A stretch of DNA of 64,000 nucleotides from Rhodovulum sp. P5 (GTDB lineage: Bacteria > Pseudomonadota > Alphaproteobacteria > Rhodobacterales > Rhodobacteraceae), in contig NZ_CP015039.1 of assembly GCF_002079305.1 (NCBI RefSeq), positions 558,001 to 622,000 on the forward strand, read 5' to 3'. The position numbers and the translations under genes are program-made. The stretch's first letter is position 1, and the number at the start of each line of letters is the position of its first letter. Shown piece after piece: positions 22,228 through 28,607 of this stretch. The notes under the pieces are model-generated. The model ran no database searches, was not told the DNA's origin, and worked only from the letters and a program-made list of their open reading frames with translations.

Positions 22228-23379
22228 TCAGTACCGGTATGGCTGAAAGTCGACGACCTGACCGTTCTGGCTGATCGCCACCAGATAGCCAATCGCCCCG
22301 GCCGCCAGCGCGGCCAGCACCGCGGCCAGCAGGATCTTCCAGACCGACCAAGGGCGTTCGCCCTGCACCCGCCCCGTCCGCCCGTTGACCACGAAGCGAT
22401 AGGTGCGCCCGCGATACTTGTAGGCCGCCAGCCAGACCGGCAGCAGGACATGCTTGAAGGTGACGCTTGAGATATCGGTATCGAGCGACGTGATCTGCTG
22501 CTGGTCCCCGCCGATGTCGAATTTCACGTCGCGCCGGATCACCCGGTCCATATAGGCCCGCGCCTCCCGAAACCCGTCCTCCAGCCCGACGGTGTAGCCC
22601 TCTGCCCGGAACCCGGCCAAAAACTCCGGCCGGTAGGGGTCGAGTTCGGACAGGTCCCAAGGCTGCAACCCGTCGGTAAAGCGTTTGGGCAGGCTGTGCG
22701 AGGCCAGAACCAGAACATCGTCGAAGAACCGCGCCACCCGGCCCGACACCGGCGTCCAGCGCACCTTGGGCACCTGGATGGTCTGTGTCTTGCCGTCCCG
22801 GATCACCCGCCGGGTTTCATAATAGACCGTCCCCCGCGCCCCGGAATAGCGCGACCGGGTATCGGCATCGAAGGTCCAGTAGGGCACATAGATGCCGTCC
22901 ATCTTGCGGCCCTTCCGGGCATATTGCTTCAACCCGTTCGGTGCGAACCACAGACGGCCCAGCCAGTCGGTCATCGCCTTGTGGGCGTCGCGTTCTTCCA
23001 GCGCGAAGGGCAGAACGCCCTTGGGCTTGATCCGGCGTTGGCGACCGGTGTCGGTGACCACCGGCGTCGCGCAGAACGGGCATTCGGTGGCATGGGCATC
23101 CGGGCCCATCTCGACCTCGGCCCCGCAATTGGGGCATTTCAGGTGCCGGACCTCCTGCATCTCGGCGCCCGGCAAATCGGCCGCCAGACCGGCCTGAAAA
23201 TCCAGTTCCGCAACGCTGCCCCTCCAGGGGCCGGCCATCTCGATCGCCTCGGTATGGCCGCAATGATCGCAGACCAGCCGGGCAGAGCCCGGGGCAAACC
23301 GCAGATCCGCACCGCATTGTTCGCAGGGGAACCGATGTTCTTGCGGCGCAATCGGGGGCACGGTGTCAGGCATGGGCAC
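22228..23379 (-). CDS. Zinc-ribbon protein with C-terminal membrane segment
   Basis: A 383-residue protein. The N-terminal 110 residues hold two CxxC pairs twice over (CEQCG ... CDHCG and CPNCG ... CPFCA), giving two zinc ribbons. A conserved middle domain (PFALEERDAHKAMTDWLGRL, then GIYVPYWTFDADTRSRYSG) follows. A single membrane helix near 345-365 precedes a short tail. It is the last gene of the XpaC-TelA-DUF2927-SPFH cluster, 25 bases after the SPFH gene. Related proteins are sometimes misnamed as helicase or primosomal proteins because of the zinc ribbon; there is no helicase motif here. Function unknown, probably a partner of the SPFH protein. Confidence 0.8.
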   Translation of the reverse strand: MPMPDTVPPIAPQEHRFPCEQCGADLRFAPGSARLVCDHCGHTEAIEMAGPWRGSVAELDFQAGLAADLPGAEMQEVRHLKCPNCGAEVEMGPDAHATECPFCATPVVTDTGRQRRIKPKGVLPFALEERDAHKAMTDWLGRLWFAPNGLKQYARKGRKMDGIYVPYWTFDADTRSRYSGARGTVYYETRRVIRDGKTQTIQVPKVRWTPVSGRVARFFDDVLVLASHSLPKRFTDGLQPWDLSELDPYRPEFLAGFRAEGYTVGLEDGFREARAYMDRVIRRDVKFDIGGDQQQITSLDTDISSVTFKHVLLPVWLAAYKYRGRTYRFVVNGRTGRVQGERPWSVWKILLAAVLAALAAGAIGYLVAISQNGQVVDFQPYRY

Positions 23380-23404
23380 AGGCGAAACAAGGCATCAGTC
23401 GCGC

Positions 23405-24523
23405 TTACGCATCATGCGGCGGGGGCGGTGGCAGAACGGTGAAAAGCTGCGCCAGTTCGGCCACGTCCTCGGCCCGCTTCCAGCCATCCTGCCCCGGTGT
23501 CCAGACATAGGTTTCGCGGCCCACCGCCCCTTCGGACGCCATACGCCCCAGATCGGCGCGAGAGAATGGCCCGCGCGTCGCGCCATTCTCGGCGATGTGC
23601 CACACATGTTCCACCGGCGGCGGGGGCGGCATCTGCCGGGCGGACGCAACCGCAGGCGCCGCCCCCCACGGCCCGTGATGGCCCATGTTATGCGCCATCG
23701 CCATTCCCATGCCCGCGCCCAGACCCGCCGCCATGCCACCGCCCGCGGGGTTCTTGGCCGCCTCGGTCATCGCCTCGGCCGCGGAATACTGGGTGTAGCG
23801 GCCCAGATCGCCCGCCAGCCCCATCGAGGTGCGCTTGTCCAGCGCCGCCTCCACCGCGGGCGGCAGGCTGATGTTCTCGATATAGAATTCCGGCAGGGTC
23901 AGCCCGTACCCGTCCAGCGTTTTCGACACCTCGGTCGCAATCAGCTTGCCCAGATCGGCGGTGTTCGCCGCCATGTCCAGCACCGGGATGCCCGATCCTG
24001 CGATCACCCGGGAAAATTCCTGCACGATGACGTTGCGGATCTGAAAGCTGATCTCGTCCATCGTGAATTCGCCATCGGTGCCCACGATCTCCACCAGGAA
24101 TGTCGCGGGGTCGGTCACACGCACGGCATAGGTTCCGAAGGCACGGATGCGCGTCGGCCCGAATTCGGGGTCGCGCAACATGATCGGGTTCTTGGTGCCC
24201 CATTTCAGATCGGTAAAGCGGGTGGTGTTGACGAAGTAGATTTCCGACTTGAAGGGCGATTTGAACCCGTGATCCCAGTGCTGGAGCGTCGTCAGCACCG
24301 GCATGTTGTTGGTTTCCAGCATGTAAAGACCGGGGGTGAAGACGTCGGCCAGTTGCCCCTCATGCACGAAGACGGCCGCCTGCCCCTCTCGCACGGTCAG
24401 CTTGGCACCGTACTTGATCTCGTGCCCCTCACGCTCGAACCGCCAGACCATGGTGTCGCGGGTGTCGTCGACCCAGTGGATGACGTCGATGAACTCACCG
24501 GAAAGGAAATCGAAAATGCCCAT
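23405..24523 (-). CDS. SPFH-domain protein with C-terminal GYF_2 domain
   Basis: A 372-residue protein. Residues 20-270 form an SPFH/band-7-like domain of the virion-core/YdjI type (AKLTVREGQAAVFVHEGQLA, then PGLYMLETNNMP). A glycine/methionine-rich linker follows. The last 70 residues form a GYF_2 domain (VWHIAENGATRGPFSRADLG, then ETYVWTPGQDGWKRAEDV), which binds proline-rich peptides or partners. The N-terminus lacks a membrane helix, so membrane contact is probably through the SPFH domain or a partner. It is followed closely by the zinc-ribbon membrane protein, a pairing seen in many bacteria. Role probably in membrane integrity or stress; not established. Confidence 0.87.
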   Translation of the reverse strand: MGIFDFLSGEFIDVIHWVDDTRDTMVWRFEREGHEIKYGAKLTVREGQAAVFVHEGQLADVFTPGLYMLETNNMPVLTTLQHWDHGFKSPFKSEIYFVNTTRFTDLKWGTKNPIMLRDPEFGPTRIRAFGTYAVRVTDPATFLVEIVGTDGEFTMDEISFQIRNVIVQEFSRVIAGSGIPVLDMAANTADLGKLIATEVSKTLDGYGLTLPEFYIENISLPPAVEAALDKRTSMGLAGDLGRYTQYSAAEAMTEAAKNPAGGGMAAGLGAGMGMAMAHNMGHHGPWGAAPAVASARQMPPPPPVEHVWHIAENGATRGPFSRADLGRMASEGAVGRETYVWTPGQDGWKRAEDVAELAQLFTVLPPPPPHDA

Positions 24524-24585
24524 ATGGCCCGTCCTCCGTTCGCAACACTCTGACTATAGGCGACCGAACGCCATCCGGTCACCGG

Positions 24586-25530
24586 TTACCCGCTTTCCTC
24601 CGGCATCAACTCTGCCGCGATGGTCTCCACGATCGGGCGCGCCTCGTCCTCGGTCATGCCGGGGCTAAGCCGCCGGTCGTAAAGGATGCGTAAAAGCATC
24701 TCGTCATGGCCAGTCAGCAGTGCGAATTCCTCATCGTCGTTGAAGATCGAGGGCCGGGCTGCCGGGCTGTCATTGGCCAGCCCCATGCCCTGGGCCAGTT
24801 CCTCGTGAATGCAGGACTGGCGCAAGCGTTCCGGATGTTCGCCGCGGATCACGGCGATGGCGCGGGAATAGGTGCTGGACGAGCCTTCGGAAAAGGCCAG
24901 GACAAGGCAGAAGGTCGACCGCGGCACATCCGTCACCGTGCGAATACCCGTGGCGTCGATCCCCGGCACCAGCCGTTCAAGCTCTGGCCCGAACGCGCGG
25001 CGCTCGTCCTCGTTCATCACCAGAACAAGATAGTTCGCATGATCGGCATCGGTCATGCGGATCGGAAGCCCCGTGAGCGCGGACAACCGGCTGGCATAGG
25101 CTGCAATATCGGCCCGGTCCGCCTTGCGACGGGACGCGGGGATGGTATCGCCGAAAACCAGCCCGATCCGGATCGGCTGGCCCCATCGGCGCAGGCGGCT
25201 TTTGGTTTCGCGGGCGACCAGTTGCCCCGAGCGCGGCACATACTCGTCATAAAGAGCGATCCGCAGGAAATTGCGCACCAGTGTCCGGCGCGAGAAGGGC
25301 ACATCGTCCAGGCCGGAATCGGTCCGCAGCAGCCCACGGCTGACGAGGTCGGCCTCGACACGGGCATAGTGCCGGGCCAATGCCTCGCTTTCCGCCGAAC
25401 TGCGGGCCGGTCTTTCGGCCGGATGCGCCGCCGACGGAAGATAGGTCACCGCGCGCGTCGATGTCTGGCAGCCGGCAAGGGCAGACGCCACCAGTATCAA
25501 CGCAAACAGGGCTCGGGGTGCGGGTTGCAC
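24586..25530 (-). CDS. DUF2927 lipoprotein, possible zinc metallopeptidase
   Basis: A 314-residue predicted lipoprotein. The GTG start gives a short signal peptide ending in lipobox ALAG-C21, so the mature protein is anchored at the membrane surface. The DUF2927 core ends with IHEELAQGMGLANDS (H242, E243), followed by LTGHDEMLLRILYD. This HE...GLxND pattern looks like a degenerate zincin site, though peptidase activity is only a suggestion. GTG 25530 is chosen because it lies seven bases after the TelA stop and yields a proper signal; the longer frame overlaps TelA. Confidence 0.8.
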   Translation of the reverse strand: MQPAPRALFALILVASALAGCQTSTRAVTYLPSAAHPAERPARSSAESEALARHYARVEADLVSRGLLRTDSGLDDVPFSRRTLVRNFLRIALYDEYVPRSGQLVARETKSRLRRWGQPIRIGLVFGDTIPASRRKADRADIAAYASRLSALTGLPIRMTDADHANYLVLVMNEDERRAFGPELERLVPGIDATGIRTVTDVPRSTFCLVLAFSEGSSSTYSRAIAVIRGEHPERLRQSCIHEELAQGMGLANDSPAARPSIFNDDEEFALLTGHDEMLLRILYDRRLSPGMTEDEARPIVETIAAELMPEESG

Positions 25531-25537
25531 GGTCTTG

Positions 25538-26716
25538 TCACGCCCCCGGCACAGACCCGCCGGCCTGGGCCCGGGATTTGGCTGCGGCAAGCGTGTCGCG
25601 CAATTCGGCCTCCATCTTCCTCAGGTCCTGTTCGGCCTTGGCGCGGCGCGCCTTGCCCTCATCCGCGATCTGCAGGCTTTCCTCGATCGTCGCGACCAGT
25701 TCGGCGTTGGCCTTCTTCACCGCCTCGATGTCGAAGACGCCGCGCTCCATCTCCTGGCGCACCGTCTTGTTGGCGGTGCGCAGGTTCGTGGCGTTCGCGG
25801 TCAGCAGTTCATTGGTCAGATCCGACGCCGCGCGCACCGCTTCTGCGGCCTCTTTGGACCGCTGGATGGTCACCGCCTGGGCCAGTTGCGTTTCCCAAAG
25901 CGGCACGGTGTTGACCAGCGTGGAGTTGATCTTGGTCACCAGCGACTTGTCGTTCTCCTGCACCAACCGGATCGAGGGCAGCGATTGCATCGTCACCTGA
26001 CGGGTCAGTTTCAGATCGTGCACCCGGCGTTCCAGATCGTCCCGCGCCGCGCGCAGGTCGCGCAGTTCCTGCGCCTTCATCACCTGATCGTTTTCATCGG
26101 CCGCATCGACGGCAGCCTGACACGCGGGGATCTCTGTCTCGTCGATATCCTTCAGCTTGCGTTCGCCAGCCGCGATATACAGCGCAAGCTCGTCATAGAA
26201 ATTCAGTGTCTTTTCATAGAGTTTATCGAGCGACTTGATGTCTTTCATCAAGGTGTGCTCATGGGTCAGAAGCCTGTCGGTAATGCCGTCGATCTGCCCC
26301 TGCACCGTTTCATAGCGCGCCACGAAACTGGCAAAGGGCGCGGTCTTGCCCATCAGCTTTTCCCACCAGCTTTGGTCGCGGCGAACATCCAGTTCCGACA
26401 CCGAGAACCCGCGGATCGTCGTCACCATCTCGCGCAGGGAGTCGCCCGCCGGACCGGCATCCTTGTTGCGCACATCGGCCAGCATGGCCTGGCTGATCTC
26501 CTGCAACTCTCCTTGGGCGGCCGACCCGAACCGGATGATCGAATTGCTGTCGGTGATGTCGAGTTCACCCATCCGCTTGCGGATCTCGTCAGCCATTTGC
26601 GGCTCCGCCGCCTCCAACGGGACCAGATCGCCCGCGGGTTCGGGCAACAGCGCGGCACTCAACTTTTCGACCTCGGCAACATCGGCGGCGGCCTTCCGGC
26701 GCACTTCATCGGGCAT
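25538..26716 (-). CDS. TelA/KlaA toxic-anion-resistance-family protein
   Basis: A 392-residue, largely helical cytosolic protein of the TelA family, first named from tellurite resistance on plasmid RK2. The characteristic blocks are present: MGELDITDSNSIIRFGSAAQ, then WWEKLMGKTAPFASFVARYE and a C-terminal heptad-rich half. ATG 26716 is preceded by GGAG and starts two bases after the XpaC stop, so the two are translated together. The XpaC-TelA pair is widely conserved in bacteria and is linked to cell-envelope stress; direct metal detoxification has not been shown for chromosomal members. Confidence 0.88.
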   Translation of the reverse strand: MPDEVRRKAAADVAEVEKLSAALLPEPAGDLVPLEAAEPQMADEIRKRMGELDITDSNSIIRFGSAAQGELQEISQAMLADVRNKDAGPAGDSLREMVTTIRGFSVSELDVRRDQSWWEKLMGKTAPFASFVARYETVQGQIDGITDRLLTHEHTLMKDIKSLDKLYEKTLNFYDELALYIAAGERKLKDIDETEIPACQAAVDAADENDQVMKAQELRDLRAARDDLERRVHDLKLTRQVTMQSLPSIRLVQENDKSLVTKINSTLVNTVPLWETQLAQAVTIQRSKEAAEAVRAASDLTNELLTANATNLRTANKTVRQEMERGVFDIEAVKKANAELVATIEESLQIADEGKARRAKAEQDLRKMEAELRDTLAAAKSRAQAGGSVPGA

Positions 26717-26718
26717 TG

Positions 26719-27636
26719 TCACTCTCCACGGTTGTGCGTGGCCGTCTCGGGGCGCACGCCTTCACGCTGCAATCTTTCGCGCAGCACCTCGATCTCGACA
26801 TCCAGATCGGTGCGGTTGTCCTGCATCAGGGCCCGGGTCCGAGCCGCGAAATTCTGTTCCAGATCATCCAGAAGCGAAACGTAGTCCGCCCGGGCACTTG
26901 CATCACGGGTCCGGGCAAAAAAATCGGCGAACTTGGTGGAGGCATCCCGCGCCCCCAGAAGATAAACGACGAGGTATTTCCGGGCCGCGGTCAGATCGCG
27001 CGGGTCCTCCTCCACGGTCCGGAGCATGTCGCGCACGGTCTCTTCGAACCGGGTGATGCGGGCCTCCAGCGTGCGGTCGCCGATGCGACTGATCGCTTCC
27101 GACATCGTTTTCAGATGCGCTTCGGCCTCCTCGACGACCTTTGCCACGCGGTCCTGCTGGAAGGTGTCGATCCCCTCCATCCCCTTGTCCTTCATCGGGT
27201 CCACCCCGAAGGTCAGGCTGTGCAGGACAAGGCCCATAACCGCATAGATCGACGGTTCGAGAAAGCCCGCCCCGGGGCCCATCCCGGCAAGAAAGAGCCC
27301 TGCCCCGGTCAGCGCGGACCCCATCATCTTGCGCGGCATCGCGGGCCGCCGGGCGACCTTGCGCGCCGACCACGCATCCTCGGCCCTCAGCCCCTCGCGC
27401 GTCAGCCACGCGGCCAGCAACAACAGGCCCAGCGCGCCCAGCGTCAGGCCCATCCCCACGGGATCAGAGGAAAACGCCCGCGGTATCAGGAAGATCGGCA
27501 CGAAGAACATGAAATTGGCCCGGGCGCCCGCCCGGCTGGGCCGCTTGTTCTGGAACGGATGGCGCGGGGGGATGACCCTCACGCCCTCGGTCTGCGCGGT
27601 CGGGCTGTATTTGCCGCCGTAACGCTCTGCCATCAT
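26719..27636 (-). CDS. XpaC-like (5-bromo-4-chloroindolyl phosphate hydrolysis) family membrane protein
   Basis: A 305-residue protein. Two membrane helices lie close together near the N-terminus (ANFMFFVPIFLIPRAF and VGMGLTLGALGLLLLAAWLT), followed by a third hydrophobic segment near residue 110. The cytosolic C-terminal part is a helical XpaC domain (VVEEAEAHLKTMSEAISRIG, then YLVVYLLGARDASTKFADFF). XpaC was named for colour formation from a phosphatase substrate in Bacillus, and the true function is unknown. The start overlaps the stop of a 27-residue peptide gene and the stop is two bases from telA, so it is the second gene of a tightly coupled operon. Confidence 0.8.
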   Translation of the reverse strand: MMAERYGGKYSPTAQTEGVRVIPPRHPFQNKRPSRAGARANFMFFVPIFLIPRAFSSDPVGMGLTLGALGLLLLAAWLTREGLRAEDAWSARKVARRPAMPRKMMGSALTGAGLFLAGMGPGAGFLEPSIYAVMGLVLHSLTFGVDPMKDKGMEGIDTFQQDRVAKVVEEAEAHLKTMSEAISRIGDRTLEARITRFEETVRDMLRTVEEDPRDLTAARKYLVVYLLGARDASTKFADFFARTRDASARADYVSLLDDLEQNFAARTRALMQDNRTDLDVEIEVLRERLQREGVRPETATHNRGE

Positions 27637-27716
27637 GCGCCCCCCGTGAAGGCGACATAGATCACCAGCGCGACCAGCAAGGAGAAAGCCAGCTTTTGTA
27701 GACCGGTCTCGGACAT
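27633..27716 (-). CDS. 27-residue single-pass membrane peptide upstream of xpaC
   Basis: MSETGLQKLAFSLLVALVIY followed by VAFTGGA is one membrane helix with a short charged N-terminus. Its stop overlaps the start of the XpaC gene (GCATGATGG). An in-frame ATG at 27728 would add four residues. No strong Shine-Dalgarno is visible, but the frame has a clear one-helix pattern and tight coupling. It may be a small subunit of the XpaC-TelA complex or a translation-coupling leader. Confidence 0.45.
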   Translation of the reverse strand: MSETGLQKLAFSLLVALVIYVAFTGGA

Positions 27717-27806: not shown

Positions 27807-28607
27807 TTACCGGTTGCGGCGGCGCGTGCGCGCGACCTTGGGCCGTGCGACCGCGGTTCCGGTGGGTTTCTCGTCGGACCCAAGCCCCAGTTGGTCACGC
27901 ATGACCCGGGCGCGCACTTCTTCCACCTCGCCCGCCTTCAGCTCACCCAGACGGAAGGGGCCATAGCCCACCCGGATCAGCCGGTTGACCGAGAAGCCAA
28001 GGCTTTCCATGGCCCGGCGGATTTCGCGGTTCTTCCCCTCGCGCAGACCGATGGTCAGCCACGCATTGGCCCCCTGCTGCCGGTCGAGCGTCACGCTCAT
28101 CGGCTGGAACCGCTCCCCTTCGACCGTTACGCCCTTGCGCAAGGGCTCCAGCGCCTCGTCGCTGGGCGCGCCCTTGATACGCACGCGGTATTTCCGCACC
28201 CAGCCGGTCGCGGGCAGTTCCAACCGCCGCTTGATTTCCCCGTCATTGGTCAGCAGCAGCAAGCCTTCGGAATTGAGGTCCAGCCGACCGACCGACATCA
28301 CCCGCGGCATGTCCTCGGGCAGCGCGTCGAAGACCGTCGGCCGCCCCTTTTCGTCCCGCGCAGTGGTCACCAGCCCGGCGGGCTTGTGGTAAAGCCACAG
28401 CCGCGACGGTTCGGGCTCGGCCACCTCCTGCCCGTCGACGGCGATCTTGTCGGCCGGGGTCACGTTCAGTGCGGGGCTGGTGATACGCTGACCGTTGACG
28501 GAGACGCGCCCGGCCTCGATCATCCGCTCGGCCTCTCGGCGGGAGGCGATCCCGGCCCGGGCCAAAACCTTCGCGATGCGCTCGCCTGTGGGAGAATCCT
28601 TTTCCAT
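27807..28607 (-). CDS. 23S rRNA pseudouridine synthase, RluB/RsuA family
   Basis: A 266-residue enzyme. The S4 RNA-binding domain is at about 8-60 (ERIAKVLARAGIASRREAER). The RsuA-type catalytic domain has VGRLDLNSEGLLLLTNDG, with the catalytic Asp in GRLD, then KYRVRI and EGKNREIRRAM. A basic C-terminal tail (RPKVARTRRRNR) probably aids RNA binding. RluB modifies U2605 of 23S rRNA in E. coli; RluE/F or RsuA specificity cannot be excluded from sequence. Divergent from tadA, with 76 bases between the starts. Confidence 0.9.
   Translation of the reverse strand: MEKDSPTGERIAKVLARAGIASRREAERMIEAGRVSVNGQRITSPALNVTPADKIAVDGQEVAEPEPSRLWLYHKPAGLVTTARDEKGRPTVFDALPEDMPRVMSVGRLDLNSEGLLLLTNDGEIKRRLELPATGWVRKYRVRIKGAPSDEALEPLRKGVTVEGERFQPMSVTLDRQQGANAWLTIGLREGKNREIRRAMESLGFSVNRLIRVGYGPFRLGELKAGEVEEVRARVMRDQLGLGSDEKPTGTAVARPKVARTRRRNR

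Follow-up and report, generated by a model that had tools for sequence, protein, structure and literature searches.

A conserved six-gene operon of Rhodovulum sp. P5 and its relatives joins XpaC-TelA and SPFH-zinc-ribbon modules to a microprotein and a predicted matrixin-like lipoprotein

Do six closely packed genes of Rhodovulum sp. P5 form one system, and what would such a system do? In a first-pass annotation of the window analyzed here (a stretch of 64,000 nucleotides of contig NZ_CP015039.1), genes for a micro-peptide, XpaC, TelA, a DUF2927 lipoprotein, an SPFH-GYF protein and a zinc-ribbon transmembrane (TM) protein (ZnR) were proposed to be an undescribed system of envelope stress or defence. 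All six are present as described on the minus strand (27716-22228), and XpaC, TelA, DUF2927 and SPFH-GYF match their families in Pfam (Table 1). The group is a real, core and conserved one, and the operon brings together two known stress modules, a microprotein and a predicted pseudo-matrixin that is specific to the lineage. The word undescribed was apt in part: both halves are known modules elsewhere, and what is new is that they are united, along with the microprotein and the predicted pseudo-matrixin. On balance, we favour a core membrane-integrity operon with an SPFH-ZnR platform, XpaC-TelA, the microprotein and DUF2927 as an external arm.

Conservation was followed in an order sample of 149 genomes, all of one family, and in 60 loci taken from 60 genera, one each. 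TelA was present in 147 of the 149 genomes, nearly always as a single copy. In 50 loci all five larger genes (XpaC, TelA, DUF2927, SPFH, ZnR) share one strand and are colinear, and in the remaining ten the genes detected stood in the same order. Four of these ten meet a contig end close after SPFH (L062, L072, L086, L088); three lack a match to one gene each, XpaC (L036), DUF2927 (L041) or ZnR (L042); SPFH and ZnR are missing next door in L066 and L077, and L067 has nothing but a decayed TelA. The order of the genes is thus conserved across the sample, as for one conserved unit, and the scattering in related genomes that had been named beforehand as the contrary outcome was not observed.

The spacing is not uniform along the operon. 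The aligned gap was at most 250 nt between XpaC and TelA and between TelA and DUF2927 (57/58 loci each), between DUF2927 and SPFH in 48/56 and between SPFH and ZnR in 30/52, so that the second half is looser. Several loci have a cytochrome b561-like gene (PF01292) inserted between SPFH and ZnR, and four of six candidates were confirmed by Pfam. Upstream, rluB precedes the operon in 52 of the 60 loci and a divergent tadA is found in 41; the rluB-type neighbour is probably not part of the operon's function.

The two modules were recognized by comparison with Bacillus spizizenii, whose ydj operon was located via a primer printed in PMC8581546. The SPFH protein matched YdjI (31% over 263 columns, E 3e-41), it belongs to Band_7_1, no hydrophobic segment was found in it and a YdjG relative is encoded close by, all as in YdjI-type SPFH proteins. 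The ZnR protein, which gave sub-threshold zinc-ribbon matches and no others in Pfam, matched YdjG nearly over its full length (26% over 360 columns, E 2e-37) and belongs with the YdjG family, whose layout is two N-terminal zinc ribbons, a middle domain and a C-terminal TM segment (here residues 349-367 of the 383-aa open reading frame (ORF), by hydropathy). Its relatives often carry database names such as 'primosomal protein N' (replication factor Y) - superfamily II helicase' or RNA-polymerase RPC12, which are misleading because the protein is a YdjG-type membrane protein.

For the other half, TelA scored 366 bits against PF05816 (gathering cut-off 30) and was closest to YaaN, the copy that follows XpaC in Bacillus (37%, E 4e-71); the match to the second Bacillus copy, which we take to be YceH, was weaker (26%, E 2e-37). 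The Bacillus gene before yaaN is an XpaC by PF10112, the family of the window's XpaC, and no significant BLAST match was obtained between the two XpaC proteins. By hydropathy, the window's XpaC has a single TM segment (residues 60-78) and TelA has none.

In B. subtilis, YdjG and YdjH are needed for bringing YdjI and PspA to the membrane (PMC8581546), and xpaC-yaaN is a core sigma-W operon, pspA-ydjGHI a secondary one (PMC3498285). Since the YdjI-YdjG pair works with PspA at the membrane and both Bacillus operons belong to sigma-W, envelope stress is the best reading of the locus, and this part of the first-pass proposal is supported by homology. The arrangement differs from both Bacillus operons. 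YdjG- and YdjI-type genes are close together in the two organisms, and SPFH resembles YdjI over the SPFH domain, but the window's protein has a GYF domain where YdjI has zinc ribbons; the six genes include neither PspA nor YdjH, and XpaC-TelA, DUF2927 and the microprotein are added. Likewise, the xpaC-yaaN pair agrees with the window in its two families and their order, but in Bacillus it lies far from ydjGHI and in the window it is joined to SPFH-ZnR, with a microprotein ahead of xpaC.

No match to PspA/IM30 (PF04012), which a PspA-centred phage-shock-protein (PSP) system would have in its operon or genome, was found in the source genome, and no YdjH (TPM-domain membrane protein) was found among the six genes, to which that Pfam search was limited. 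PspA exceeded the cut-off in 47 of the 149 order-sample genomes. TelA is therefore near-universal and PspA optional. This supports, without proving, a role of TelA-XpaC in the PspA-YdjH slot. The PSP systems of Ravi et al. 2024 (PMC11237479) likewise have Band-7/ZnR partners in a membrane-stress operon. The main text of that paper does not contain 'SPFH', 'toxic anion', 'YceH' or 'TelA' ('XpaC' alone was not searched), so that a PspA-free TelA version is not described there under these terms. In the open-access literature searched, no paper was found joining TelA, XpaC and SPFH, or tying phage-shock-protein/PspA to toxic anion resistance and SPFH; the matches listed for any two of toxic anion resistance, band 7, SPFH, XpaC and microprotein concern other SPFH proteins.

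The smallest gene of the operon is not a chance ORF, in agreement with the first-pass annotation. A TM-like small ORF ending at most 60 nt from the xpaC start was found in 79 of 82 de-duplicated genomes, 62 of the 79 being 27-29 aa long. The same test gave 0/83 before telA, 0/79 before DUF2927, 0/73 before SPFH, 0/53 before rluB, 3/55 before ZnR and 2/25 before tadA. Furthermore, dN/dS was about 0.19 (62 pairs from 39 genomes, the pairs not being independent), and the majority consensus shows Q-K-[ILV]-A-[FY] ahead of the TM segment and a Gly near the end. The window microprotein has no Pfam match, and the 450 nt ahead of Bacillus xpaC yielded no TM-like small ORF. In 12 of 58 loci (e.g. L031:6078-6248) a further small membrane ORF (MSKxTFYFxV...GYxRKL) occurs upstream of the microprotein-xpaC pair.

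For the DUF2927 gene, the GTG at 25530 is the most likely start codon, and it gives the lipobox LAGC; a lipobox-like site was seen in 45 of 58 relatives. The 'HE...GLxND' motif noted in the first pass is present, but its His is not invariant: the invariant form is E-E-x-x-Q-x-x-G-L-x-N-D, whose E, E, Q, G, L, N and D are unchanged in 40/40 aligned homologues. EExxQxxGLxND occurs at 56 of 58 loci, L072 showing HEELAQGLGLASD and L052 no such stretch.

The predicted structure of DUF2927 has the fold of a matrixin catalytic domain (9-19% identity to matrixins; Foldseek's own best E 0.0039). With the register against HExxHxxGxxH set by the sequence around the Gly, matrixin (M10) metalloproteases have His/His/His as zinc ligands where DUF2927 has invariant Glu/Gln/Asn; DUF2927 differs from them also in its low identity and in being a lipoprotein. 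An active matrixin or metzincin was rejected, the HExxHxxGxxH/D zinc site being absent and EExxQxxGLxND standing in its place. Sequence searches of the Protein Data Bank (PDB) gave nothing at E 5 with a single sequence and two unrelated weak matches (E 1.2 and 1.3) with a profile; no metzincin Pfam match was found up to E 10 for three DUF2927 homologues and P0122, and no paper on DUF2927 was found in the open-access literature.

DUF2927 genes also occur elsewhere. The source genome has a second one (G000:C1:661720-662322; L101:4562-5932), which shares the E-E-x-x-Q motif and is extended far at its C-terminus, and in another genome of the class (G280:C1:46652-66787) seven DUF2927 matches, from at least six genes, are clustered in about 20 kb.

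Among the 57 SPFH proteins drawn from the 60 loci, 55 have a Pro run ahead of the GYF region and 54 a proline tail after it; one miss (L062) is cut by a contig end. As proline stretches flank the GYF domain on both sides, this domain may bind neighbouring SPFH protomers. The closest GYF relative of known structure lies within the gliding protein AglX (7z3c, E 0.0012), and nothing on topic was found among the open-access matches listed for GYF with SPFH. The SPFH C-terminal domain varies by lineage (L109-L122, L123, L093-L095): GYF, zinc ribbons, or domains which, by eye, we take to be helix-turn-helix-like or SHOCT-like. The TelA model is helical and of low confidence (pLDDT 63.9, pTM 0.45), and a PDB sequence search with TelA gave nothing at E 1.

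Outside the order, a class sample of 144 genomes held TelA in 14, 3 of these from the window's own family. Ten TelA loci were taken from nine of the other eleven genomes, the two weakest being left out. Three of these loci, from three other families (L093, L094, L095), have a contiguous XpaC-TelA-SPFH-ZnR core and no DUF2927 match; the other seven have no SPFH or ZnR match within 16 kb. TM-like small ORFs were seen at all three core loci: one of 38 aa overlapping an xpaC start by 4 nt (L093:6059-6175), one of 26 aa ending 17 nt before an xpaC start (L094:6431-6511) and one 336 nt upstream of xpaC (L095:6137-6223). None scored significantly against a profile of the family microproteins (E 3.1 or worse). 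A phylum sample gave 17 strong SPFH matches outside the family. Among the loci of 14 of these matches, six from other families (L109-L114) have SPFH and ZnR close together with TelA not nearby, eight have SPFH without a ZnR match, and none matched TelA, XpaC or Bacillus PspA. The core of four thus exists where DUF2927 is missing, and SPFH-ZnR can occur as a pair by itself.

From conservation and module homology, we infer one complex, an order of events and a stress role as follows. The YdjG-like ZnR protein would anchor the YdjI-like SPFH-GYF scaffold at the inner membrane, and XpaC would be a second membrane anchor, for helical TelA, which would occupy the place held by PspA and YdjH in Bacillus. 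Upon membrane damage, the SPFH scaffold and TelA would assemble at the lesion; scaffold rings may be cross-linked by contacts between GYF domains and polyproline. The microprotein would be coupled to xpaC translation and act as an XpaC subunit or regulator, and DUF2927, a putative matrixin fold with lost zinc ligands, would be an external arm sensing or binding something periplasmic. More tentatively, the operon could be a counterpart to the phage-shock response that works without PspA. TelA-XpaC would then be the membrane-repair polymer and its anchor on a YdjG-YdjI platform, the tiny microprotein would tune it while bound to XpaC, and the lipoprotein, an inactive matrixin acting as a binder and not as a protease, would connect it with the periplasm.

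A joint machine of this kind has to be weighed against two separate complexes, one of XpaC-TelA and the microprotein and one of SPFH-ZnR, that would share no more than an operon and a stress regulon, which we consider possible though doubtful. In B. spizizenii the modules are at separate loci, and the six phylum loci have SPFH-ZnR with no TelA nearby. In whole-genome searches of ten genomes for SPFH, however, the three without intact TelA (G011, G085, G106) also had no SPFH match over the cut-off; this co-absence, together with contiguity in four families, argues for one system. The same searches located SPFH on another contig than telA in G124 (the L077 locus) and found none in G081 (L066), where telA is kept. 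Both genomes weigh against the membrane-integrity reading, and G124 is also a point for two separate complexes. Several further observations likewise count against membrane integrity as the operon's role. SPFH-ZnR is nearby in just 3 of the 10 TelA loci outside the order, and within it their gap exceeds 250 nt in 22 of 52 loci, several with intervening genes. About one in three order-sample genomes has PspA as well as the telA operon, so that replacement is not strict. The TelA model is too poor for comparison with ESCRT-III. In addition, several distance correlations with rluB were as high as those within the operon, and XpaC spans were coarse; as the operon genes are not clearly above rluB, the correlations demonstrate shared descent only.

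It appears improbable that the operon primarily confers toxic-anion (tellurite/selenite) resistance, as the family name of TelA and the source annotations suggest. Loss of a Listeria telA homologue had a 2-fold effect with tellurite, in line with the name, but increased nisin sensitivity 4-fold (Collins 2010, cited in PMC12791056), which speaks for the membrane-integrity reading; the operon partners are membrane-scaffold proteins, and in Bacillus xpaC-yaaN belongs to the sigma-W envelope-stress regulon (PMC3498285). An anti-phage or other conflict system, put forward in the first pass as defence, is very improbable. The sole PADLOC match among the five larger proteins was a marginal one of TelA to PbeC (E 0.0018), the other four giving none at E 0.01, and telA is near-universal and nearly always single-copy, in a conserved neighbourhood with rluB. 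As its distribution is neither patchy nor mobile, a defence system was rejected.

The features are collected in Table 1. The junctions from the microprotein to ZnR are -4, -4, +7, +62 and +31 nt, the 4-nt overlap of xpaC and telA holding provided that telA starts at a GTG; for the ZnR gene, the ATG at 23373 is the most likely start codon. No sigma-70-like site was detected immediately ahead of the operon by a consensus scan, a result silent on stress sigma factors, and the promoter/terminator scan gave no informative site at either operon end.

Table 1. Features of the operon and its surroundings (window positions, unless a locus is given)
Feature	Position	Strand	Basis or remark
27-aa single-TM microprotein (MSETGLQKLAFSLLVALVIYVAFTGGA)	27633..27716	minus	stop codon overlaps xpaC start by 4 nt
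XpaC membrane protein, 305 aa	26719..27636	minus	PF10112, E 1.8e-25
TelA / YaaN-type 'toxic anion resistance' protein	25538..26722	minus	PF05816, E 2.2e-109
DUF2927 lipoprotein, predicted matrixin-like pseudo-metalloprotease	24586..25530	minus	PF11150, E 2.2e-61
HEELAQGMGLAND in DUF2927, metzincin helix position, zinc ligands swapped for Glu/Gln/Asn	24769..24807	minus	
SPFH (Band_7_1) protein with C-terminal GYF domain	23405..24523	minus	PF13421, E 7.2e-102; GYF_2 PF14237, E 3.5e-20
Double zinc ribbon and C-terminal TM protein (ZnR), YdjG relative	22228..23373	minus	homology to YdjG
rluB-type pseudouridine synthase, conserved upstream neighbour	27807..28604	minus	PF00849, E 9.6e-17
Cytochrome b561-like inserts	L032:10897-11496, L044:11290-11886, L058:11681-12211, L078:10842-11477		PF01292

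TelA and XpaC are widespread families of unsettled mechanism, named for tellurite and for an indolyl-phosphate colour test. Fixed in an operon with a YdjG-YdjI scaffold, in hosts mostly without PspA, they acquire a direct, testable role. The conserved microprotein offers a handle on XpaC; for DUF2927 there is now a predicted fold, along with grounds for expecting binding and not proteolysis. If the reading of a response without PspA is true, the operon would provide a major marine and phototrophic family with its standing machinery for membrane repair.

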